Shown piece by piece: positions 23,001 through 42,901 of a stretch of 64,000 nucleotides of DNA. The stretch covers positions 1 through 64,000 of the forward strand of contig JANWYV010000054.1 of NCBI GenBank assembly GCA_025055075.1. The letters are read 5' to 3'. Position 1 is the first letter of the stretch. Each line of letters begins with the position of its first letter. The notes beneath the pieces are model-generated. The model was not told the origin of the DNA and made no database searches. It saw nothing but the letters and a program-made list of their open reading frames with translations. Source of the DNA: Blastocatellia bacterium (lineage in GTDB: Bacteria > Acidobacteriota > Blastocatellia > HR10). The position numbers were made by a program, and so were the translations under genes.

Positions 23001-23563
23001 ATCTCCAAGACGCTGCGATACGCGCCATCCGGATCGAGAGCGACAATATCATTCAGCACGCGCGCGTACGCGGTGTAAATTGTCGCCACATCATGATCGC
23101 GAGCATCGGTGAGAGCCGTTCGCGAGGCGAATTCGGCGAAATCCTCCGCCGACATATCCGCGCGCTGGAGTTCGCCGAGCAATCGCGCGATCGAACGAGC
23201 ACAGCCTGGCAAATGGGCGATCTCCCGAACGTGCCGGAGCATTCCCCGAGCGTTCAGTTCCGCGAGCAAACGCTCGACGATGACGCCGCGCTCTCCTTCC
23301 TCGAGGAACAGGGGAGTTTGTCGGCCCTCCTGAAGGAATCGCCGCACGAAGCCGTCGAAGAGAAACACGCGCAGCTCTCCACAAGCTGTCACACGCTCGC
23401 CGTCCACGATCCGACGCACGACGTCCTCCCAGAGCGGACGCGTCGCCACGAGATAGAGGAATGTCCGGTCGTGCCCGGCCCGCAACGCATCCTGGCAATG
23501 GGAGACGAAGATCTCTCGGTTCTTTCCCAAAACCGGTTCGAACCAGATCTCGATGCGGCCCAC
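20078..23563 (-). CDS. addB: AddB-like inactivated helicase and iron-sulfur PD-(D/E)XK nuclease
   Basis: A 1161-residue partner of the downstream AddA-like protein. The N-terminal two thirds resemble a UvrD-like fold without an intact Walker A motif, as in AddB. The C-terminal nuclease shows the motif RGRIDRVD and then YDYKSG, and the cluster cysteines Cys837 (YGQCPFRFFA), Cys1130, Cys1133 and Cys1139 (CQHCEFQAVC). Start is uncertain: GTG 23563 has a GGGAG ribosome site 7 bases before it, while ATG 23599 overlaps the -10 box of the only good promoter and is therefore unlikely. The two genes together should process DNA ends for RecA loading; Chi-like recognition cannot be judged. Confidence 0.85.
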   Translation of the reverse strand: MGRIEIWFEPVLGKNREIFVSHCQDALRAGHDRTFLYLVATRPLWEDVVRRIVDGERVTACGELRVFLFDGFVRRFLQEGRQTPLFLEEGERGVIVERLLAELNARGMLRHVREIAHLPGCARSIARLLGELQRADMSAEDFAEFASRTALTDARDHDVATIYTAYARVLNDIVALDPDGAYRSVLEIFRRRPDLPPWLRETRVLLIEGFFDFTPVQKTLLRYLIERIPKTMVSLVFDPENPSVFQEPLAATLQFFHSFGERAITLQRTETLSYDVRLRPLRRLFADTGGTGERGERIVEGEPPITIIAAMGFAEEVREIARLIKRLVHDEGYRTSEIAVIARDVAYLRALGEELPRLGIPIALDVREPLTAVPIVKAALRVLEARVERERAAAYAALLKSDYLRSFSSYDRDALESAMRAVGVDLNIHEFRKRARDLRRIKEHQAQTLTARTVDLEEVQQELARLRRAEAALEATLEAVDGMQRALAHIPERGQVPDFVEGFRRALDAFGLRDQVQRELLEAGRDEEAWRRIARDLRGWQALEECLDRLVHLCERADRAIAAHGIQGAREDKTTITAATVFQRPLDVREFRDLFVHWIEQVEFRRERGDPAGVRLLEATQARGLAFRVVILPGLIEGGFPRAPEHDWIYSMAERERLAAAGLFLEDLSPRRFEAKEAHFFYHAVGQATERVYLTYPRAEATGEDTVPSPFLEEVREVYGEGEGGISAIPIREIDPTTYDVRAIASLDDGRRALLASVYQTTPDDALVLHLYNEALRAGWVDQSLLHRAAIERRREAGEPGPFTGVLTDAVVRQHLRGRFGPRRIYSPSQLNTYGQCPFRFFAQRVLRLEKREEASLDLVALDRGYLLHVILHEFFERHGRGSLAPERRYEYREEMARVAERIFSEYEQKALPINRALWELEKAELLDTLIQFLDAEIAYQQRTGGRMRPYWLELGFGIEPQDRDRCHPDSRREPLVLRRAKSSSEHGRAIVEEDRLQIRGRIDRVDRSDEGHYIAYDYKSGSGASAEEIEEGVDLQLPLYILALERLFLRPGEEVVGGGYYSIRTGKRTRGLYRREAVELTAISERARSSLPTPEWRERLVRAEHFAWQYVEGMRRGDFRVQPRSTRVCQHCEFQAVCRFDPYRAHFAVNEGSSAFEERE

Positions 23564-23597
23564 AGCCTTCTCCCTTTCGACGCAGCTCTGCCCCCTC

Positions 23598-23627
23598 ATT
23601 GTACCGCGAATCCGACGCGATGCCCAA
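23598..23627 (-). promoter_or_regulatory. Likely promoter of the addBA operon
   Basis: Minus-strand TTGGGC (23622-23627) and TACAAT (23598-23603) with an 18-base spacer. The expected transcription start near 23591 lies downstream of ATG 23599, which supports GTG 23563 as the addB start. Confidence 0.5.
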
Positions 23628-23630
23628 CCG

Positions 23631-23659
23631 TTGGCATTCTCGCCTCCATATGGCACAAT
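23631..23659 (+). promoter_or_regulatory. Likely promoter of the threonine dehydratase gene
   Basis: TTGGCA (23631-23636), 17-base spacer, CACAAT (23654-23659). It points away from the addBA promoter; the two -35 regions are almost back to back, giving a compact divergent control region. Confidence 0.5.
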
Positions 23660-23692
23660 CAGGCGCTGAGATTCGCCGGGAGGAGAGAGCGC

Positions 23693-24655
23693 ATGCACGC
23701 CATTCCGACGATCCTCGACATCCTCGATGCCGAACGGCTCATCCGTCGGTATCTTCCCCGCACGCCGCTGTATCCGTGCCCGGGATTGAGCGAGCTGCTC
23801 CAGGCCGAGGTGTACGTGAAATACGAAAACCATCAACCGATCGGGGCGTTCAAGGTGCGCGGCGGGGTAAATCTGATCGCGCGTCTGAGCGAGGAGGAAC
23901 GACGACGCGGCGTCATCACAGCTTCGACGGGGAACCATGGTCAGTCCATCGCATGGGCCGCGCGACTCTTCGGCGTGCGAGCGCGCGTCGTCGTGCCCGT
24001 CGGCAGTAATCCCGATAAGGTGAAGGCCATCGAGCGCCTCGGCGCGGAGATCATCGTCCACGGGAGAGATTTCGACGAGGCGCGCGAATACGTCGAGGCG
24101 TTAGCTGAGCGCGAGGGGTATCGGTACATCCACTCGGCGAACGAGCCGCACTTGATCGCGGGCGTGGGAACGATCGGCTTGGAGATCGTCGAAGACCTGC
24201 CGGACGTCGAGGTCATCCTCGTCCCCGTCGGCGGCGGCAGCGGCGCTTCCGGTATCTCCATCGCCGCTCGTGCTCTCAATCCGGAGATCGAAGTCATCGG
24301 CGTCCAATCCGAAGCGGCCCCGGCCGCCTATCTCTCTTGGCGCGAGGGACGGGTCGTCGCGACCGACTTCATGAACACGTTCGCCGAGGGACTGGCGACT
24401 CGCGTCGGCTTCGAGCTGCCGCTCGCCATCCTGCGCGAGAACCTCGCCGATTTCGTCCTCGTCAGCGAAGACGAGATTCGTCGCGCCATGCTCCTCATGA
24501 TGGAAGCGACCCATAATCTCGTCGAAGCTGCCGGAGCCGCGCCCTTGGCCGCCGCCCTTCGGATCCGCGACCGATTGTGCGGACGCAAGGTCGTACTCGA
24601 TCTCTCCGGCGGTAATATCACGCTCGTCGCCCTGCGCCAACTCCTCGTGGCGTGA
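23693..24655 (+). CDS. ilvA: Threonine dehydratase (PLP-dependent ammonia-lyase)
   Basis: A 320-residue fold-type II PLP enzyme that deaminates L-threonine (or serine) to 2-oxobutyrate. PLP lysine is in GAFKVRGGVN near residue 52, the substrate loop STGNHGQS follows, the phosphate-binding glycines are in VPVGGGSGASG, and the C-terminal DLSGGN closes the site. ATG 23693 follows GGGAGGAGAG. There is no ACT-type regulatory domain, so it is of the short, catabolic or unregulated class, although it could still feed isoleucine synthesis. A serine racemase or related dehydratase remains possible. Threonine synthase lies 440 bases downstream on the same strand. Confidence 0.85.
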   Translation: MHAIPTILDILDAERLIRRYLPRTPLYPCPGLSELLQAEVYVKYENHQPIGAFKVRGGVNLIARLSEEERRRGVITASTGNHGQSIAWAARLFGVRARVVVPVGSNPDKVKAIERLGAEIIVHGRDFDEAREYVEALAEREGYRYIHSANEPHLIAGVGTIGLEIVEDLPDVEVILVPVGGGSGASGISIAARALNPEIEVIGVQSEAAPAAYLSWREGRVVATDFMNTFAEGLATRVGFELPLAILRENLADFVLVSEDEIRRAMLLMMEATHNLVEAAGAAPLAAALRIRDRLCGRKVVLDLSGGNITLVALRQLLVA

Positions 24656-24907
24656 AGCCGGGCTCATCGCCGTCGAGGACCACGCCGAGTTATGCCGCCG
24701 CTTCAGATCGCCTCGCTCATGAGCACCGTGAACGCCCTCGCGTCTTGCTGAAGGCGAGGCCGCCTCTCCAAATTGAGAAGAGGGCGGCTCGACAGAGGAG
24801 ATCACCTCTGTAACCGAGGCGATCCGAGATGAGTCGCTCGTGTCGTTCCCTTGCGATCGCCGCACGGATCATCCGTTGTTCATTTGCGCTCTCGAGCCGG
24901 GGAACGA

Positions 24908-24974
24908 GTCCGCCCATCACGGGCGGACCTTGACAGATTCGGTGCGAGTGCGTAGCCTGTGTCATTTACACAGG
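24908..24974 (+). promoter_or_regulatory. Promoter of the thrC operon with palindromic operator
   Basis: TTGACA (24930-24935) is a consensus -35 box; 17 bases on lies TAGCCT (24953-24958), a weak -10. The inverted repeat CCTGTGT-N5-ACACAGG (24956-24974) overlaps the -10 and start region, so it may be an operator; its TGTG...CACA core resembles CRP/FNR-family sites. A second perfect repeat, GTCCGCCC-N5-GGGCGGAC (24908-24928), lies directly upstream of the -35 box. Binding proteins are not known. Confidence 0.45.
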
Positions 24975-25046
24975 CGAGGCGATTCATCGCGATTGATGTT
25001 CGGTGAGGGAGAACGGGTTGTTCGGAGCGAGTTCTGGTGGAAGACG

Positions 25047-25079
25047 AAATCTCACGCCTGCGGGCGCGAGATTTCTTTT
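25047..25079 (+). terminator. Attenuator-like intrinsic terminator before thrC
   Basis: AAATCTC (25047-25053) pairs with GAGATTT (25068-25074), continued after one A-C mismatch by CGCC/GGCG around a TGCG tetraloop, and is followed by CTTTT. The thrC ribosome site begins 2 bases later. A terminator placed between promoter and coding region is the classic sign of transcription attenuation; it could also block or expose the ribosome site. I did not find a convincing competing antiterminator or a run of Thr codons in a leader peptide. Confidence 0.6.
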
Positions 25080-25092
25080 AAGGAGGAGGACG

Positions 25093-26355
25093 ATGGCATA
25101 CGCCACTAATGCCGTCGAGGCGGAAACGCGAAGTTATGTGACTGGATTGCGCTGTCGGGTGTGTCGCGCGACATATCCGGAGCAACCCGTGGCGATCTGC
25201 GAGGAGTGCTTCGGTCCTCTGGAAGTGGAGTACGATTACGATGCGCTCGCGCGCGTGATTTCCCGCGAGCGCATCCTCTCGCGTCCGCCGACGATGTGGC
25301 GATATTGGGAACTGCTGCCCTTGAATGCGCCGCCGCGCGTGGGAGTCGAGACCGGAGGCACGCCGCTCGTGCCCGCTCCTCGCCTGGGCGCCGCGCTCGG
25401 GTTGAAGAACCTCTTCCTCAAGAACGACGGCGTGTGTCATCCGACGCTCTCCTTCAAGGATCGCGTCGTCGCCGTCTCGCTCTCCAAAGCGTGCGAATTC
25501 GGCTTCGATACGGTGGGGTGCGCTTCGACGGGGAACCTGGCCAACTCGGTTGCAGCCAATGCCGCGCGCGCGGGATTGAAGGCCTACATCTTCATCCCGG
25601 AGACGCTCGAACAGGCGAAAATCCTCGGCACGCAGATTTACGGGGCGCGCGTGATCGCCATTCGCGGCACGTATGACGATGTCAATCGCCTCTGCAGTGA
25701 GATCGTTTACACCTTGCCCTGGGGATTGGTCAACGTCAACCTTCGCCCCTTCTATTCGGAGGGCTCGAAGACGGTCGGATTTGAGATCGCCGAACAACTG
25801 GGCTGGCGCGCTCCCGACGCGGTGGTCGTCCCGATGGCCGGAGGTTCGCTCCTGACGAAGATTCACAAAGCGTTTGGGGAGCTACAGCGCCTTGGTCTGA
25901 TCCCGCCGACCCGCACCCGCCTATTCGGCGCTCAAGCGAGAGGGTGTAACCCGATCGTCGCCGCCGTCAAAGAGGAGAGCGAGACGATTCGTCCGGTGAA
26001 ACCGCGGACGATCGCGCACTCGCTCGCTATCGGTGACCCGGCGGATGGCTATTTCGCCGCGCGAGCGATTCGCGAGAGCGGCGGTTGGGCCGAAGACGCC
26101 ACCGATGAGGAGATCCTCGAAGGCATCCGCTTGTTGGCCGAGACGGAAGGGATTTTCACGGAGACGGCCGGAGGGGTGACCGTCGCCGCGACGAAGAAGC
26201 TCGTCGAGCAAGGGTGGTTGGCCCCTGATGAGACGGTCGTCTTGGCCATCACCGGCAACGGCCTCAAGACGACGGAGGCCCTCACAGCATCGCCTCCTAT
26301 CGCTATTGCTCCGAAGATCACTGAAGTCGAACGATTGCTCCGAGAGGGAATATGA
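25093..26355 (+). CDS. thrC: Threonine synthase (or related PLP enzyme)
   Basis: A 420-residue fold-type II PLP enzyme. The N-terminus has two CxxC pairs (CRVC, CEEC) of the zinc-ribbon kind found in one threonine synthase class. The PLP lysine is in LSFKDRVV, followed by STGNLANSVAANAARAG and VPMAGGSLLTKI. It should convert O-phosphohomoserine to threonine. ATG 25093 follows AAGGAGGAGG. It heads an operon with a MoaD-like carrier, a rhodanese and a MoeB-like activating enzyme, a context unusual for plain threonine synthesis. It therefore may instead, or also, accept sulfur from the carrier to make homocysteine or cysteine; this is inference from context. Confidence 0.85.
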   Translation: MAYATNAVEAETRSYVTGLRCRVCRATYPEQPVAICEECFGPLEVEYDYDALARVISRERILSRPPTMWRYWELLPLNAPPRVGVETGGTPLVPAPRLGAALGLKNLFLKNDGVCHPTLSFKDRVVAVSLSKACEFGFDTVGCASTGNLANSVAANAARAGLKAYIFIPETLEQAKILGTQIYGARVIAIRGTYDDVNRLCSEIVYTLPWGLVNVNLRPFYSEGSKTVGFEIAEQLGWRAPDAVVVPMAGGSLLTKIHKAFGELQRLGLIPPTRTRLFGAQARGCNPIVAAVKEESETIRPVKPRTIAHSLAIGDPADGYFAARAIRESGGWAEDATDEEILEGIRLLAETEGIFTETAGGVTVAATKKLVEQGWLAPDETVVLAITGNGLKTTEALTASPPIAIAPKITEVERLLREGI

Positions 26356-26382
26356 ATCTCTGCCAGCAGGAGGGGGGAGACG

Positions 26383-26679
26383 ATGAGCGTGACGGTTCGG
26401 ATTCCACAACCGCTCCGACGCTTCACGGAGAACCGGGATGTGATCGAACTGTCGGCCGGAACTGTCGGCGAGGTCCTGGAACAGTTAGAGCGACAGTATC
26501 CGGGCATCACTGAGCGCTTGCGCGAACCCGATGGGCAGCTTCGACGGTTCGTGAACATCTACGTGGATGGCGAGGACATTCGCTTTCTGAGCGGACTGGC
26601 GACAGAGGTGCGAGATGGCACGGAAGTCTCCATCATCCCCGCCATCGCGGGGGGGAGCGGGCACTTCCTCCTTCGCTGA
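26383..26679 (+). CDS. MoaD/ThiS-like ubiquitin-fold sulfur carrier with C-terminal tail
   Basis: A 98-residue beta-grasp protein. TVRIPQPLRRFTENRDVIEL, then a helix (TVGEVLEQLERQYPGI) and VNIYVDGEDIRFL match the MoaD/CysO group. The usual C-terminal Gly-Gly is at residues 90-91 (PAIAGG) but seven more residues, SGHFLLR, follow before the stop. To be adenylated and thiocarboxylated by an E1-like enzyme, the tail would have to be removed, as is known for some carriers processed by JAMM proteases. The Gly-Gly codons lie in a run of seven G (26649-26655); a +1 slip there would fuse it in frame with the rhodanese downstream. Start ATG 26383 lies behind GGAGGGGGGAG. Confidence 0.87.
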   Translation: MSVTVRIPQPLRRFTENRDVIELSAGTVGEVLEQLERQYPGITERLREPDGQLRRFVNIYVDGEDIRFLSGLATEVRDGTEVSIIPAIAGGSGHFLLR

Positions 26680-26707
26680 CCCGGCCCCGTGCGCTCGCAC
26701 GCGGCCG

Positions 26708-27067
26708 ATGGAGATCGAGCCTGAGGAATTGAAGGCCCTTCTGGAGGAACGTCCGGAGGCCATCCTTCTGGTGGATGTGCGACAGCCGGACGAACATGCC
26801 TATTGCTGCATCCCCAGCTCGCGGTTGATCCCATGGCCCGAGCTTCCGTGGCGCGCGAGCGAGTTGAATCCGCGTGCTGAGATCGTCCTCTATTGCTATC
26901 AGGGCGTGCGAAGTGCGCTCGCCGCGGCTTGGCTCGCGGAGCTGGGGTTCGAACGCGTTCGAATTCTGCGTGGTGGGATCCGAGCGTGGGCTGCGCGCAT
27001 TGATCCCTCGCTTCCACAGTATGGAGCGCATAGCGAGGAATTGACGGAGGAAGGGAGAATCCGATAG
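26708..27067 (+). CDS. Single-domain rhodanese sulfurtransferase (TtuD candidate)
   Basis: A 119-residue rhodanese domain. It begins with ELKALLEERPEAILLVDVRQ, has the active-site loop CYQGVRSAL with the catalytic Cys in LYCYQGVRS (normally carrying a persulfide), and ends with the RGGIRAWAA segment. It likely hands sulfur from a desulfurase or thiosulfate to the thiocarboxylate step on the carrier protein, with the MoeB-like enzyme that follows 20 bases on. In Thermus such a rhodanese (TtuD) serves tRNA 2-thiolation. ATG 26708 has no strong ribosome site (CGGCCG before it), which fits either translational coupling or the frameshift fusion discussed for the carrier. Confidence 0.87.
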   Translation: MEIEPEELKALLEERPEAILLVDVRQPDEHAYCCIPSSRLIPWPELPWRASELNPRAEIVLYCYQGVRSALAAAWLAELGFERVRILRGGIRAWAARIDPSLPQYGAHSEELTEEGRIR

Positions 27068-27087
27068 TTTCTTCGATCGGGAGGGGC

Positions 27088-28116
27088 ATGAATCGAGAGA
27101 AGTACTCGCGGCAAATCCTCTTTCGAGAGATCGGCGAAGCGGGACAGGAGCGCTTGCTCCAGAGTCGCGCCGTCATCATCGGCTGCGGAGCGCTCGGCGC
27201 CGCGCAGGCGGAGATGCTCGCGCGCGCGGGCGTGGGGTTCTTGCGGCTGGTGGATCGCGATTTCGTCGAGGAATCCAACCTGCACCGACAGATCATGTTC
27301 GAGGAACGCGATGCTGCGGAACGGCTCCCCAAGGCGGTCGCGTGCGCGCGGCGCGTTGAGCGCATCAATTCCGATGTGCGCACAGAGGTCATCGTCGCCG
27401 ACGTGAACTACAAGAACATCGAACGGCTGATCGCCGATGTGGACGTCGTCCTCGATGGCACGGACAATTTCGAGACGCGTTATCTCATCAACGACGCGTG
27501 CGTCAAACACGGGAAGCCTTGGATCTACGGCGCGGCCGTTGGCTCCTATGGGCTCACGATGACGATTCGTCCGGGCATCACGCCGTGCTTGCGGTGCGTG
27601 TTCGAGAAGATCCCTCCGCCCGGATCTTCTCCCACCTGCGATACGGCGGGCATCATCCTTCCCATCATCCTCACCATCGCCTCGATCCAGGTGACGGAGG
27701 CGCTCAAGCTGCTCATCGGGCGCGTCGAGAAGCTACACGAAGGGCTGATTCAAGTGGACGTGTGGGAGACGTCCTTCCATCGCGTGAGCCTGCGCAAAGT
27801 GCGCGAGAGCGCCGATTGTCCGGCCTGCCGTCACCGGCGGTTCGAATTCCTGGAAGCAAGCGTGCGGCAATCGGCTCTGACGCTGTGCGGACGGAATGCC
27901 GTTCACATTTCGAGTTTCGGCGACGCCTCGCTCGATCTGCGAGAGATCGCCGAACGCTTGAAGCCGCTCGGGGAGGTGACACTCAAAGAGTTCCTCCTCA
28001 TCTTTCGTGTGAACGGCTATGAACTGAATCTCTTTCCGGACGGGCATTGCATCGTCAAAGGGACGGAGGATATGGCGCTGGCTCGAAGTCTCTACGCCCG
28101 ATATATCGGGATTTGA
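27088..28116 (+). CDS. moeB: MoeB/ThiF-like E1 enzyme activating sulfur carriers (TtuC candidate)
   Basis: A 342-residue adenylyltransferase. Nucleotide-binding loop IIGCGALGAAQAEML (Gly32 region), the Arg/Asn active site ESNLHRQ, DGTDNFETRYLIND, catalytic-type Cys184 in SPTCDTAG, and a zinc site from Cys167/Cys170 and Cys244/Cys247. After the core, residues 255-342 form an extra C-terminal domain with LTLCGRNAVHI that looks like a small ferredoxin-like or beta-grasp add-on rather than the rhodanese found in some homologues; the rhodanese is the separate gene upstream. It adenylates the carrier C-terminus. ATG 27088 follows GGGAGGGGC. It may serve both carriers in this window, as TtuC does in Thermus. 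Confidence 0.9.
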   Translation: MNREKYSRQILFREIGEAGQERLLQSRAVIIGCGALGAAQAEMLARAGVGFLRLVDRDFVEESNLHRQIMFEERDAAERLPKAVACARRVERINSDVRTEVIVADVNYKNIERLIADVDVVLDGTDNFETRYLINDACVKHGKPWIYGAAVGSYGLTMTIRPGITPCLRCVFEKIPPPGSSPTCDTAGIILPIILTIASIQVTEALKLLIGRVEKLHEGLIQVDVWETSFHRVSLRKVRESADCPACRHRRFEFLEASVRQSALTLCGRNAVHISSFGDASLDLREIAERLKPLGEVTLKEFLLIFRVNGYELNLFPDGHCIVKGTEDMALARSLYARYIGI

Positions 28117-28147
28117 GGCTCCTCGAACGCCGCGGCTTGACCTTCCC

Positions 28148-28176
28148 TTGCCCGAGACTCGATGGATGCGTATTAT
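28148..28176 (+). promoter_or_regulatory. Likely promoter of the M28-like peptidase gene
   Basis: TTGCCC (28148-28153), 17-base spacer, TATTAT (28171-28176). The start codon at 28213 lies 37 bases downstream, leaving room for the GGGAGGA ribosome site. Confidence 0.5.
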
Positions 28177-28212
28177 TGTGCCGCCATGGTTCACCAATTG
28201 GGAGGAACGGCG

Positions 28213-30294
28213 ATGCGGAAAGGTATGGCGGGCATTCTCCTCGCCCTTCTGATCTTCTCTGCTGCTCCGGCACAAACATTACCACTCCTCACCGACGCGG
28301 AATATCGTTATCTCGTCAATGAGATCTCCGGCGACATCGCCTACGAGCACATCCGATACTTCACGCTCTTCCACCGACCGCGAGGAGGAACGGAAGGATT
28401 GATGCGCGTGGCGGAATATGCGGAGCAAAAGGCGCGGGAATATGGCTTGGAAGACGTGAGGTTGATCAAGCAGCCATATCCGCTGGAGGCGTGGAAGGTG
28501 CGACGTGCGGAGCTGTGGATGATCGAGCCGGAATGGCAACGCCTGGCCGATTTCTTGCAGACCCATGTCCATGTGGCTGACAACAGCCGCTCAGCCGACG
28601 TCCGCGCGGAACTGGTCGATGTCGGAGCGGGCTTGGAAGAAAAGGATTACGTCGGGAAGGACGTGCGGGGGAAGATCGTCCTCGCCTATGGATCGCTCGA
28701 TCGCGTGATGGAGGAAGCCGTGTGGAAGCGCGGCGCGTTGGGGATCGTGTATTATCCCGATCCTTCGGCGACCGAATATCCGCTGAACAGCATCAATTTC
28801 CCCGATCAGATTCGATGGGTGCGCATCCCCCTTCGAAGTGCGGATGGGAAGGAAGGGACATTCGCCTTCTCGCTCTCACTTCGGCAAGGCTTGATGCTGC
28901 GTCGGCGGCTCGCTCAAGGACCGGTCAAGGTTCATGCGCGGATCGAAGCTGAAGTGCTTCCGGAGAAGTGGCAGGTCATGGTCGAGGGGTTCATCCGTGG
29001 CACTGAGATCCCGGATCAGGATATCGTGCTGACGGCGCATCTGCAGGAGGAGAAATTCTCCGCCAATGATAATGCCAGCGGATGCGCGGGCCTTTTGGAG
29101 ATCGCGCGCGCGCTCACGAAATTGATTCGCGAAGGGAAAATTCGACGACCGCGCCGCAACATTCGCTTCTGGTGGGTAACGGAGATCTCCGGCCCACGAC
29201 AATACTTCGCCGATCACCCGGATGAGCCGCGACGAATGCTCGTCAACATCAATCTGGACATGATCGGCGCCAATCAGGGACAGGACTTGCTGCGGGTTCA
29301 GAACATCACGCGCGTTCCCTTCTCGCGCAGCCACTTCCTGACGGATGTCGCCGAGCGCGTCGTTGAATTCGTCGTCACCAGCAATACCTCGCAGTTAGCG
29401 CAATTCCAAGCGGGATCGCCTTTTCCTTATCCTAAGCCGATCCTCGCGCATCTCGGAACGCGCCATCGCTACAACGCGCAGATGATCCCCTTCCACAACA
29501 ACACCGATCACATGACGTTCAACGAAGCGCCGATCGGCGTTCCAGGGATCACCTTCACCAACTGGCCCGACAACTATATTCACACGACGGACGACGACCT
29601 CTGGAACATCGATCGCACGCAATTGCAGCGGAATACGTTCGCTGCCGCCGCCATCGCCTACTTCATCGCCTCACTTGACGCGGAACGCGGGCGCATCCTC
29701 GCAACGGAGGTCTTCACGCGAGCGCTCGAGCGGATGGCCTTCGATGAGCGCCTGGCTTTCGAAATGGTCTTGCACGAGCCGGACAAGACGTTCGCCTTCG
29801 GGCGCGCTCGAAATCAGATCCTCCAAGCCGCAGCACGCGAACGCCTGGCGCTCGAGTCCATCCTTCGCCCGGTCCCCGAAGCCCGAGGGCTCGTCGAACA
29901 CTTCAAGACCATGCTCGCAGAGAGAGAAGCCCAAGCGCTCTCGAATTTGGAGCGATACTATGTGAAGATCACGGGACAAGCGCGCGCTCCTTCGCTCGTC
30001 CGCTCTCCGAAGGAGGAAGAATTGGCGCGGAAGATCCCCGTCCTCGCCGCCGGGCCAGCCGAATTCTTGGAGCGGCGTCATCGCGTCCGCAACGTGGAGG
30101 GCTTGCACCCACTGATGGCCTTCGAGGTGCTCAATTTCATTGATGGCTCGCGATCGGTCCTGGACATCTACAATGCTGTGGATGCGGAAGCACGCCGCGC
30201 CGGAGCTCACTACTATGGGACGGTGACGCTGGAACGCGTCGAACACTATGTGCGAAATCTCATCGAAGCCGGGCTTGTCCGGTGGAAGCTATGA
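28213..30294 (+). CDS. Exported M28-like aminopeptidase with PA insert and PqqD-like tail
   Basis: A 693-residue protein with a clear signal peptide (MRKGMAGILLALLIFSAAPAQ). A PA-like domain (about 115-205, with KIVLAYGSLDRVMEEAVWKRG) is followed by a peptidase core: His276 in TAHLQEEK, Asp286 in ANDNASG, a TEISG segment, NINLDMIG and YIHTTDDD. The classic HxD start of M28 is replaced by HLQ, as in the divergent aminopeptidase-like branch with AHL...ANDNASG. The last 65 residues (FEVLNFIDGSRSVLDIYN, then HYVRNLIEAGLV) look like a PqqD-type winged helix. ATG 28213 has GGGAGGA before it. Likely digests peptides outside the cytoplasm. Confidence 0.82.
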   Translation: MRKGMAGILLALLIFSAAPAQTLPLLTDAEYRYLVNEISGDIAYEHIRYFTLFHRPRGGTEGLMRVAEYAEQKAREYGLEDVRLIKQPYPLEAWKVRRAELWMIEPEWQRLADFLQTHVHVADNSRSADVRAELVDVGAGLEEKDYVGKDVRGKIVLAYGSLDRVMEEAVWKRGALGIVYYPDPSATEYPLNSINFPDQIRWVRIPLRSADGKEGTFAFSLSLRQGLMLRRRLAQGPVKVHARIEAEVLPEKWQVMVEGFIRGTEIPDQDIVLTAHLQEEKFSANDNASGCAGLLEIARALTKLIREGKIRRPRRNIRFWWVTEISGPRQYFADHPDEPRRMLVNINLDMIGANQGQDLLRVQNITRVPFSRSHFLTDVAERVVEFVVTSNTSQLAQFQAGSPFPYPKPILAHLGTRHRYNAQMIPFHNNTDHMTFNEAPIGVPGITFTNWPDNYIHTTDDDLWNIDRTQLQRNTFAAAAIAYFIASLDAERGRILATEVFTRALERMAFDERLAFEMVLHEPDKTFAFGRARNQILQAAARERLALESILRPVPEARGLVEHFKTMLAEREAQALSNLERYYVKITGQARAPSLVRSPKEEELARKIPVLAAGPAEFLERRHRVRNVEGLHPLMAFEVLNFIDGSRSVLDIYNAVDAEARRAGAHYYGTVTLERVEHYVRNLIEAGLVRWKL

Positions 30295-30366
30295 GCCGAT
30301 CCGCCGGAGCGATGCTGATCCCCTCTCCGCTACTGGGATGGGTCTTCGGAAAGGAGGTGCGCACGT

Positions 30367-30789
30367 ATGCAAGAAGTTCGAGTCGTCCTCGCCGATGAAC
30401 GGCTCTTCGTCGGTCACTCGCCGAGTGGTCGGGCCATCGTCATTGACGCTGACCGAGAGCGGGACAGCGCTCCGGGCCCCATGCAGTTACTCTTGCTCGC
30501 CCTGGGCGCGTGTACGGGCACGGATGTCGCGACTATTCTGAAGAAGAAGCGGCAAGTGGTCACGCATTACGAAGTGCGTGTCTCCGCCGAACAGCGCGAG
30601 GAGTATCCCCGCATCTGGCAGGACATCGTCGTGCGACACATCGTGCGCGGGCGCCAGATCTCTGAGGGAGCTGTGCGAGAAGCCATCCGCCTCTCTGAGA
30701 CGAAATATTGCAGCGTCTCAGCGATGCTCGGTGCTGCGACGACCGTCACCATGACCTACGAGATCCAGGAGGAGGAAGTGGCCTCATGA
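30367..30789 (+). CDS. OsmC/Ohr-family peroxidase-like protein
   Basis: A 140-residue OsmC-fold protein. Both redox cysteines are present: Cys49 in LALGACTGTD and Cys115 in ETKYCSVSAM, the second in the usual long-helix position. This family reduces organic hydroperoxides with a thiol partner. AAAGGAGG lies 9-16 bases before ATG 30367. The stop overlaps the start of the LigD-type phosphoesterase gene by 4 bases, so the two are translated together. Whether the link is oxidative-damage defence is inference. Confidence 0.9.
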   Translation: MQEVRVVLADERLFVGHSPSGRAIVIDADRERDSAPGPMQLLLLALGACTGTDVATILKKKRQVVTHYEVRVSAEQREEYPRIWQDIVVRHIVRGRQISEGAVREAIRLSETKYCSVSAMLGAATTVTMTYEIQEEEVAS

Positions 30790-31385
30790 GCGCGGCGTCT
30801 CAGGAACATCGGAAGATCGTCGAGCGTCCTTCCGAAGACGCGCGCCGTCCTTTTCCTGATCTCCCGCCCCCGATCTTCGTCGTGCAAAAACATCACGCTT
30901 CGCGTTTGCACTACGACTTTCGTCTCGAAATCGGCGGCGTGCTCGTCTCGTGGGCGATTCCCAAGGGGCCGTCGCTCTCGCCGCGGGAGCGACGATTGGC
31001 CATTCAAACGGAGGATCACCCTTTGGGATACGCGACGTTCGAGGGAAAGATCCCGCCGGGAAATTACGGCGCCGGGACCGTCATCGTGTGGGATTATGGG
31101 CGCTGGGAGATGTTATCGCCGGACCAGGATCCGATGCGCGCGCTGCGGGCCGGGACGTTGAAATTCGTCCTGTACGGGCGAAAACTGCATGGCCGATGGG
31201 CGCTCGTTCGCTTGAAGGGGCGCACGGAAAAGGAATGGCTCCTCATCAAAGAGCGCGATGAGGAGGCGCGCGAAGCACCGGCGATCACGGAAGCGGAACC
31301 GCGCTCGGCGCTCTCCGGGCGCACGCTGGAAGAAGTCGAGCGAGATCCGAACGCCCCCGTGCTCTCGTGCCACGATTTCGGATGA
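30786..31385 (+). CDS. Stand-alone LigD-type 3'-phosphoesterase
   Basis: A 199-residue protein corresponding to only the phosphoesterase domain of bacterial LigD, which trims 3'-phosphate or 3'-ribonucleotide ends during DNA repair. The metal/catalytic set is recognisable: His36, His42 and Asp44 in QKHHASRLHYDFRLE, His78 in EDHPLGYATFEG, then IPPGNYGAG and LKGR. Neither ligase nor primase/polymerase domain follows, and no Ku is nearby. ATG 30786 overlaps the stop of the OsmC-like gene. Such free PE proteins occur in bacteria and archaea; the partner is unknown here. Confidence 0.9.
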   Translation: MSAASQEHRKIVERPSEDARRPFPDLPPPIFVVQKHHASRLHYDFRLEIGGVLVSWAIPKGPSLSPRERRLAIQTEDHPLGYATFEGKIPPGNYGAGTVIVWDYGRWEMLSPDQDPMRALRAGTLKFVLYGRKLHGRWALVRLKGRTEKEWLLIKERDEEAREAPAITEAEPRSALSGRTLEEVERDPNAPVLSCHDFG

Positions 31386-31607
31386 GGCCGAAGCACTTGA
31401 CGCTATGGCCGAAGCGTATTCTAATTCGCACGGTGCCGATGCGACAGATTCGGCGTGAGCATGACCGGCACGAGGACCGGGACGCGATCGTTCCGGTCGC
31501 AGTGGGAAGAGTCCGCGTCGTTGTCCCCGGAGGCCCCGGCATTCGTCCCAAGTCTTTCGGATGGACGCGACGCACCATTGCACAGGATCGAGCTGAGGGA
31601 GCGACCT

Positions 31608-41708: not shown

Positions 41709-41906
41709 ATGAAGGTCCGATACGGCCAGCAGGAATACGAATTCACCGAGCGCATGAGTGTGCGTGTGTTGCTCGAGAAGCTCGGGGTTCTGCCCGAGAC
41801 AGTCGTCGTCGTGAGAAACGACGAGATCGTGACCGAAGATGAGTGGCTCGATGTGGAGGATGACGTCGAATTGATTCGCGTCGTCTCCGGAGGCGTCGGG
41901 ACATGA
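41709..41906 (+). CDS. ttuB: TtuB-like ubiquitin-fold sulfur carrier
   Basis: A 65-residue ThiS-like beta-grasp protein: KVRYGQQEYEF, a helix MSVRVLLEKLGVLPE, VVVVRNDEIV and the terminal ELIRVVSGG. The Gly-Gly lies at residues 61-62 and is followed by VGT before the stop, which is unusual because the carrier normally ends at Gly-Gly. It overlaps the ttuA start by 4 bases, so it should be the direct sulfur donor of TtuA, as TtuB-thiocarboxylate is in Thermus. A thiamine ThiS role is less likely given the neighbour. The tail would need removal, or TtuB here uses a different end. Confidence 0.87.
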   Translation: MKVRYGQQEYEFTERMSVRVLLEKLGVLPETVVVVRNDEIVTEDEWLDVEDDVELIRVVSGGVGT

Positions 41907-42901
41907 AATGCCGGAAGTGCTTGAAGAAAGCCATCATCTACATGCCGGAGCACCGACTGGCGCTCTGCTCGGCGTGCTACTCGCCGTGGTTCCTCGATTA
42001 CACGGAGCGAACGATCCGCAAGTTCAAGATGTTCTCCCGCCGAGACCGCGTTCTGGTCGCTGTCTCTGGCGGAAAAGATAGCCTCTCGCTCTGGCACGCC
42101 TTGTGCGCGCTCGGATATGAGGCCGATGGCTTTTACATCGATCTGGGAATCACCGGCAACGATCGCTATTCAGAGCAATCGAAGCAACGTTGTATGGAAC
42201 TCGCTGAGAAGCTCGATCGGCGCCTGCACATCATCAGCGTCGCCGAAGAGGTCGGCGCGCCAATCCCAGAGATCAAAGACCTCACGGCTCGCGAAGCCTG
42301 CTCCGCCTGCGGATTGATCAAACGGTACTTCATGAATCGCTACGCCTTGGAAGCCGAATACGATGTGATCGCCACCGGACATAATCTCGATGACGAAGTC
42401 GCCGTCCTCTTCTCGAACGTCCTCAATTGGAATCGCGGGTATCTCGCTCGCCAATATCCGGTCTTGGATGAGCGGGAGGGGTTGAAGAAGAAGGTCAAGC
42501 CTTTCGTCTATTTCACCGAGAAGCAAACGACGGTTTATGCGTTGGTGAACCGGATCGCGTACATCCGCGACGAATGTCCGTATGCGCTCGGCGCGACGAC
42601 GCTGTCGTACAAGGCCATCCTCGCGCAACTGGAGCATCAAGCGCCGGGCACGAAACGGCGTTTTCTCGACGGCTTCTATCAAATTCGCGCGCTCTTCGCG
42701 GGAGCCGAGACCACGGCGCTCATCCCCTGCTCGCGCTGCGGTCAGCCGACGACGGCCGACGTCTGCGCATATTGCCGATTGGTCGAGCATGTCCAGCGAC
42801 GGCGTGGCCTTGTTTCAATGGTCGAGCCACAAGTGACCGTGTCGGAAACAGAGGGTGGAATCGAGCACGAGGAGTCGCCGGTTCTCGATCGGCGATCGTG
42901 A
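41903..42901 (+). CDS. ttuA: TtuA-like tRNA 2-thiolation enzyme (s2T54)
   Basis: A 332-residue TtcA/TtuA-family PP-loop enzyme. Zinc finger 1 uses Cys3/Cys6 and Cys22/Cys25, the PP-loop SGGKDS is at 55-60, the iron-sulfur cysteines are Cys133/Cys136 (CSACG) and Cys225 (DECPYA), and a second zinc finger uses Cys276/Cys279 and Cys288/Cys291. This full set matches TtuA, which thiolates ribothymidine 54 in tRNA and stabilises tRNA at high temperature. It starts inside the ttuB stop. A short unstructured C-terminal tail (after residue 300) is extra. Presence of TtuA is a good hint of thermophily. Confidence 0.93.
   Translation: MKCRKCLKKAIIYMPEHRLALCSACYSPWFLDYTERTIRKFKMFSRRDRVLVAVSGGKDSLSLWHALCALGYEADGFYIDLGITGNDRYSEQSKQRCMELAEKLDRRLHIISVAEEVGAPIPEIKDLTAREACSACGLIKRYFMNRYALEAEYDVIATGHNLDDEVAVLFSNVLNWNRGYLARQYPVLDEREGLKKKVKPFVYFTEKQTTVYALVNRIAYIRDECPYALGATTLSYKAILAQLEHQAPGTKRRFLDGFYQIRALFAGAETTALIPCSRCGQPTTADVCAYCRLVEHVQRRRGLVSMVEPQVTVSETEGGIEHEESPVLDRRS

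Follow-up and report, generated by a model that had tools for sequence, protein, structure and literature searches.

A MetO-like sulfur carrier with residues beyond Gly-Gly in a Blastocatellia genome, and the association of such tails with JAMM peptidase genes

Sulfur carriers whose genes encode residues past the Gly-Gly (capped carriers) are known from the QbsE/QbsD and HcyS/HcyD pairs, each made of a carrier and a JAMM peptidase. The JAMM gene commonly, but not universally, clusters with the gene of the capped carrier, and the JAMM motif consists of a Glu, a His-x-His and a Ser-x-x-Asp. In the CysO/Mec/CysM system of Mycobacterium, it is Mec that releases cysteine. MetO and MetM were reportedly described in Streptomyces by Hasebe et al. 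in 2024 (AEM e01247-24), and a SAM riboswitch is said to lie upstream of metM in S. albulus, without being universal. Part of PMC6006322, which also names QbsD, describes the Streptomyces carriers PtmS2 and PtmS3 with caps after Gly-Gly (MV and C, respectively) and reports that inactivation of the JAMM protease halts thioacid production. According to the relevant section of PMC8832034, the Deinococcus JAMM peptidase cleaves MoaD-MoaE so that a Gly becomes the C-terminus, and JAMM-less cells show cPMP while the wild type does not; an excerpt of PMC9916421 also describes JAMM as needed for MoaD-MoaE in Deinococcus. TtuB, MoaD and ThiS share a single E1 in T. thermophilus, where deletion of the JAMM gene disturbs TtuB conjugates and tRNA thiolation (sections of PMC3980101), thus shared enzymes have precedent. 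A role of JAB domains in releasing ThiS/MoaD domains from fusions was proposed by Iyer et al. 2006 in a section of PMC1779556. Finally, the Streptomyces MetM/MetO pair uses a sulfur carrier to convert O-phosphohomoserine to homocysteine, as stated in part of PMC12172450, where a Microcystis MetM homologue is reported not to function fully as MetM in cells.

We examined a 64,000-nucleotide stretch of a Blastocatellia bacterium genome (contig JANWYV010000054.1 of assembly GCA_025055075.1), hereafter the window, and the features of interest are collected in Table 1. In the carrier ORF (ATG start, TGA stop), PAIAGG at residues 86–91 is followed directly by SGHFLLR, exactly as the original prediction had read it. 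The Pfam ThiS profile spans residues 5–91 (E 5.7e-17), ending at the second glycine. The carrier shares the ThiS/MoaD domain with Gly-Gly of MetO, here with seven residues beyond it, and encoded residues past Gly-Gly are also the mark of the PtmS2, QbsE and HcyS type. An alignment of 19 carrier sequences showed 26 invariant columns, both glycines included. The structure predicted from this alignment had a mean pLDDT of 88.9, with about 91–97 (averaged per ten-residue block) for the body through residue 80 and less than 50 for residues 90–98, a model in which the carrier is a folded body with a flexible C-terminal end.

Table 1. Positions of the genes and sites discussed, numbered along the window.
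Feature	Position	Strand	Basis
MetM-like PLP enzyme of the threonine-synthase family; its gene immediately precedes that of the carrier	25093..26355	+	PRK08197 and TIGR00260 above cut-off
MetO-like ThiS/MoaD-family sulfur carrier, 98 aa	26383..26679	+	ORF, Pfam match, alignment
Codons of the conserved Gly90-Gly91	26650..26655	+	Invariant in 19/19 aligned sequences
Seven-residue tail SGHFLLR and stop codon	26656..26679	+	Sequence, orthologue C-termini, structure model
Stand-alone rhodanese-domain protein	26708..27067	+	Profile match; likely sulfur relay to the carrier
E1-like MoeB/ThiF-family adenylyltransferase	27088..28116	+	Profile matches; likely activates the carrier
Second ThiS-family carrier of the window, TtuB-like, SGG then VGT	41709..41906	+	Profile matches, C-terminus reading
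TtuA-like tRNA 2-thiouridine synthase	41903..42901	+	Above Pfam TtuA_LIM_N cut-off

The carrier had first been labelled MoaD-like. Only 27 bases separate its start from the end of the MetM-like gene, for which we chose the start codon at 25093 (the ORF as listed begins at 25003). The product of that gene, named threonine synthase by NCBIfam, is distinct from the other threonine synthases of the genome, two further strong paralogues encoded elsewhere (38% identity). We surveyed 80 named related loci, counting as adjacent any MetM-like gene of at least 50% identity that ended at most 600 bases upstream: such a gene precedes MetO in 57 of the 76 loci with enough upstream sequence, and the four same-genus loci (L118–L121) retain both the MetM and the E1 neighbours. 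MoaD itself was considered and rejected, as no MoaE is adjacent or fused to the window carrier: the genome has a single MoaE match, on contig C4, and there it forms a fusion with a different MoaD. From this neighbourhood and the separate MoaD-MoaE fusion, the carrier would be better called MetO-like, and the earlier label is replaced. The pair appears to correspond to the MetM/MetO of homocysteine synthesis; the MetM assignment rests on synteny, because the Microcystis homologue is reported to be less than fully a MetM in cells. The Cys/Met-metabolism PLP family is represented in the genome by three strong matches, and a canonical homocysteine route may therefore operate alongside; this and the NCBIfam name count against the MetM reading.

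A search with Rfam models for SAM riboswitches in positions 23500–31500 of the window gave none, whereas MetM-MetO loci elsewhere often have one: 14 of 25 scanned named loci (of the 80) carry a match in the same orientation as MetM, and SAM_alpha matches lie near the pair in two of nine class loci (L124 and L126). SAM riboswitches upstream of MetM-MetO occur in several phyla, for example at L041:6484-6602, L050:620-736, L037:288-408, L036:6319-6427 and L048:213-342, among others.

The tail differs even between close relatives. Same-genus carriers are 86–96% identical to that of the window, and in four separate genomes (L005–L008) Gly-Gly is followed by SESVLRC, SAL, GAL and NEHAPSL; a same-family orthologue has KG, one from the same order SQERER, and two from another genus have C. 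A comparison of close homologues, which had been proposed as a check, thus gave a divided answer: all those of the genus are tailed (three or seven residues), but neither the sequence nor the length of the tail is conserved. From these C-termini, the tail looks like a property of the lineage that is free in sequence and length. The original prediction had considered that close homologues might end at Gly-Gly and that the tail might then be a sequencing error in a run of G. The first part holds for 12 of the 20 class orthologues (L005–L024), which stop exactly at the glycines, the other eight being tailed. The second part fails. Although the glycine codons do sit within a run of seven G, tails in four separate same-genus genomes show that this is not an error of the window's assembly, and by frame arithmetic a one-base gain or loss in the run would not expose Gly-Gly, since translation of the carrier would continue in the frame that the ORF at 26615–27067 (rhodanese) uses, or in the third frame. 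A sequencing or assembly artefact is therefore hardly credible.

We searched the whole genome (G000, 98.8% complete) for JAMM/Mec-type proteases, as the original prediction had suggested. Three Prok-JAB matches were found, all of them outside the window, in agreement with its statement that the window holds no JAMM gene. The third match reads as RadC and was discarded as a trimming candidate. The other two are Mec-like JAMM proteins of 143 and 145 residues, both encoded on contig C13 (Prok-JAB scores of 88.5 and 83.7 bits), with the HxH...SxxD motif (HSHPDAEARPSAYD and HSHPASAAYPSATD) and an upstream Glu. With scores of 86 and 88.9, both stay below the curated cut-off of 130 for the haloarchaeal desampylase model, and the solved chains closest in sequence to the first protein are 2kcq and 2kks, followed by chains called JAMM1. 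The last part of a CysM gene overlaps the first JAMM gene, a CysO-E1-rhodanese triple fusion follows, and the three form one unit (L114:7478-10451); the second JAMM gene overlaps bshC, of bacillithiol synthesis (L115:8914-9351). The genome of this capped carrier thus has JAMM peptidases, as in the known pairs, but their genes are not clustered with the carrier gene, lying on C13 while the carrier lies on C54, and this speaks against trimming by JAMM. A JAMM gene lies inside 15 of the 80 related named loci.

All five ThiS-family matches of the genome, read at their C-termini after a profile search, have residues after the glycines: the MetO-like carrier (SGHFLLR), the CysO-E1-rhodanese fusion, the MoaD-MoaE fusion, a ThiS-like carrier (S) and the TtuB-like carrier, which is capped too, since its SGG is followed by VGT. 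The gene of this last carrier overlaps the TtuA-like tRNA thiolation gene, whose product falls short of the curated threshold set for the nearest NCBIfam model.

We then compared tails with JAMM genes across genomes. In the 80 named genomes, with a JAMM line of 43 bits, 41 tailed MetO came from genomes with JAMM and three from genomes without, while untailed MetO were divided into 12 and 24, respectively. Most of the untailed JAMM-less cases (20 of 24) are Verrucomicrobiota, and without this phylum the association is weak (tailed 41 with and 3 without JAMM, untailed 10 and 4; Fisher P 0.051). We therefore compared the other carriers within the class, in a set of 98 genomes in which a Prok-JAB match of at least 60 bits defined the presence of JAMM; G073, with 50.6 bits inside a 1179-residue frame, was counted as JAMM-less. 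The count was based on 145 carriers (142 plus three from the window's own genome) of about 246 distinct matches, with identical C-termini merged per genome. It leaves out most long-frame CysO-E1 and MoaD-MoaE fusions, most stand-alone MetO (those of the class were counted separately, in the reading of orthologue C-termini), eight stand-alone carriers of JAMM-less genomes, matches that stop before the end of the profile, and some of the entries of G010–G029. L034 and L035 of the named set are genomes G004 and G003, respectively.

Among stand-alone carriers of the class other than MetO and CysO, short tails were present in 26 of 56 from JAMM genomes and in none of 65 from JAMM-less genomes. Fusions or long ends numbered 20 in JAMM genomes and one in JAMM-less genomes; G056, a JAMM-less genome, has one MoaD-MoaE fusion. 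When the JAMM label was shuffled within families, equally few tailed JAMM-less genomes arose in 0.025% of the trials (P 0.00025), and by genus short tails occurred in 10 of 17 with JAMM versus 0 of 10 without. In genus g11, none of the 56 carriers read has a tail (14 in JAMM genomes, 42 in JAMM-less). The 14 untailed stand-alone carriers in JAMM genomes show that JAMM is not sufficient for tails, and in the lack of any tail the genus is uninformative as a contrast, even though it has genomes of both kinds. The CysO-E1 fusion is found in 58 of the 98 class genomes, all 58 among the 63 with JAMM (five have JAMM without the fusion and 35 have neither). The source of that association may be the pathway, with Mec releasing cysteine, rather than trimming; clearer evidence comes from the tailed ThiS- and TtuB-like carriers.

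Exceptions were also found. Three tailed MetO are in genomes with no JAMM gene detected (L043, L072 and L076), and the genome of L076 has two further tailed carriers. In 16 named JAMM-less genomes, 32 of 35 non-MetO carriers end at Gly-Gly, the tailed ones being one in G171, which has a 41-bit Prok-JAB match, and two in G140. The corresponding figures for 13 named JAMM genomes, picked for their tailed MetO, were 22 Gly-Gly ends of 36, eight short tails and six fusions or long ends. It is possible that the counter-example genomes are incomplete and that a JAMM gene was missed. Separately, we observed that the tail of the Omnitrophota MetO at L043:4680-5003, from one of these genomes, repeats the end motif (SDARRFCAPAIAGGKD). 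In two other loci, both with a JAMM gene (L066:8001-8516 and L095:8001-8516), MetO carries an 80-residue domain behind Gly-Gly, which in L066 matches Pfam NIL; this domain, known from methionine transporters, might thus sense methionine.

The three tailed MetO without detected JAMM would also be expected if a different protease or carboxypeptidase trimmed the tail, either a housekeeping enzyme or the M28 peptidase encoded at 28162–30294, whose gene adjoins the carrier locus here and in the four same-genus loci. Such trimming seems unlikely to us, as tails track JAMM genes and M28 is absent from all named loci outside the genus. The adjacent M28 was rejected as the trimming enzyme: its N-terminus is signal-peptide-like, so the product is probably exported, and the neighbour is restricted to the genus.

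Taken with the two JAMM proteins of the genome, the association of tails with JAMM genes agrees with the earlier expectation that a tailed carrier should need a JAMM-type cut. We therefore favour, as the probable explanation, that the MetO precursor is trimmed by a resident JAMM peptidase while its tail drifts neutrally, and that the carrier then enters a MetM homocysteine route. The carrier would be made as an inactive precursor, and a Mec-type JAMM peptidase, whose gene lies outside the window, would cut after Gly91 and remove SGHFLLR; the first candidate is the enzyme encoded beside CysM and the CysO-E1-rhodanese fusion, and the second the one beside bshC. The neighbouring E1-like protein may adenylate the trimmed Gly91, the rhodanese, or a desulfurase that supplies it, may help to turn the adenylated residue into a thiocarboxylate, and the MetM-like enzyme could pass the sulfur to O-phosphohomoserine, giving homocysteine. 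With a JAMM peptidase always present and tolerant of many tails, the tail would be free to drift. The gene pair in JAMM-less named genomes also bears on the last step: MetM directly precedes MetO in 21 of 26 with enough upstream sequence and MetO ends at Gly-Gly in 24 of 27, so the MetM route, unlike CysO/Mec, seems to work without JAMM for product release.

The same protease would serve if the tail were a regulated cap, with MetO stored inactive and uncapped by JAMM when methionine is short, and MetM-MetO does lie near SAM riboswitches in other phyla. However, many orthologues lack a tail, congeneric carriers share neither its length nor its sequence, tails are found on ThiS- and TtuB-like carriers as well, and drift of the tail speaks against a regulatory role; we regard such a cap as decidedly improbable, and the earlier proposal that proteolysis gates activity finds no support for the same reasons. 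An unconserved tail, together with tailed ThiS- and TtuB-like carriers, fits constitutive trimming of a neutrally drifting extension. Lack of conservation would equally suit a carrier that is left unprocessed, its thiocarboxylate chemistry lost or its role a different one, with the tail merely tolerated. Against this are the Gly-Gly and 24 other columns invariant in 19/19 sequences, the high identity within the genus and the MetM and E1 neighbours kept in the same-genus loci, which make it very improbable. The carrier may also be released by a different mechanism, the alternative raised at the outset.

Cutting of capped carriers by JAMM is a process of an already known kind, which would account for the odd tail, while gene order assigns the carrier to methionine rather than molybdopterin synthesis. 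The genome-wide association of tails with JAMM genes was not found in print among openly licensed papers. A simple rule follows: an extension past Gly-Gly is a pointer to a JAMM peptidase encoded in the same genome, which can predict a need for the protease and help to find the partner enzyme. More tentatively, and with somewhat more doubt than confidence, we propose that in this lineage one or two deubiquitinase-like JAMM peptidases license all the sulfur carriers and that tails are a neutral ratchet. A single trimming step would then underlie the synthesis of thiamin, molybdopterin, cysteine and methionine as well as tRNA thiolation; once a general trimmer is fixed, loss of the stop after Gly-Gly and fusion of domains would be free, and if the trimmer were lost, all carriers would have to end at Gly-Gly. 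The data suggest that JAMM peptidases, relatives of eukaryotic deubiquitinases, can act as general maturation enzymes of bacterial ubiquitin-like carriers, beyond one pathway.

Compared with described systems, the locus resembles in gene order Streptomyces MetO/MetM, in which a ThiS/MoaD-type carrier is likewise encoded directly behind a threonine-synthase homologue; here the carrier has a seven-residue tail and is followed by rhodanese and E1 genes, positions 23500–31500 are without a riboswitch, and the MetM role is predicted from the genes. PtmS2 and PtmS3, with the JAMM protease PtmS1, likewise have residues after Gly-Gly and a JAMM gene in the genome. In that system, one of the capped carriers is encoded in a cluster with the JAMM gene, and Gly-Gly is the terminus of two other carriers (part of PMC6006322), whereas in the window's genome the JAMM genes and the carrier gene are on separate contigs and no uncapped ThiS-family carrier was found. 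The CysO of Mycobacterium belongs to the same carrier family (in a sequence comparison of the window carrier with PDB chains, CysO chain 3dwg ranked second), and the genome has a CysM-JAMM-CysO unit of its own; unlike in Mycobacterium, this unit lies away from MetO, its CysO shares one polypeptide with E1 and rhodanese domains, and MetO partners a threonine-synthase homologue. Finally, as with DR0402 of D. radiodurans, the JAMM cut would fall after the C-terminal glycine of the carrier, and the window's genome also has a MoaD-MoaE fusion; the substrate of DR0402 is such a fusion, while the window carrier has a short tail.
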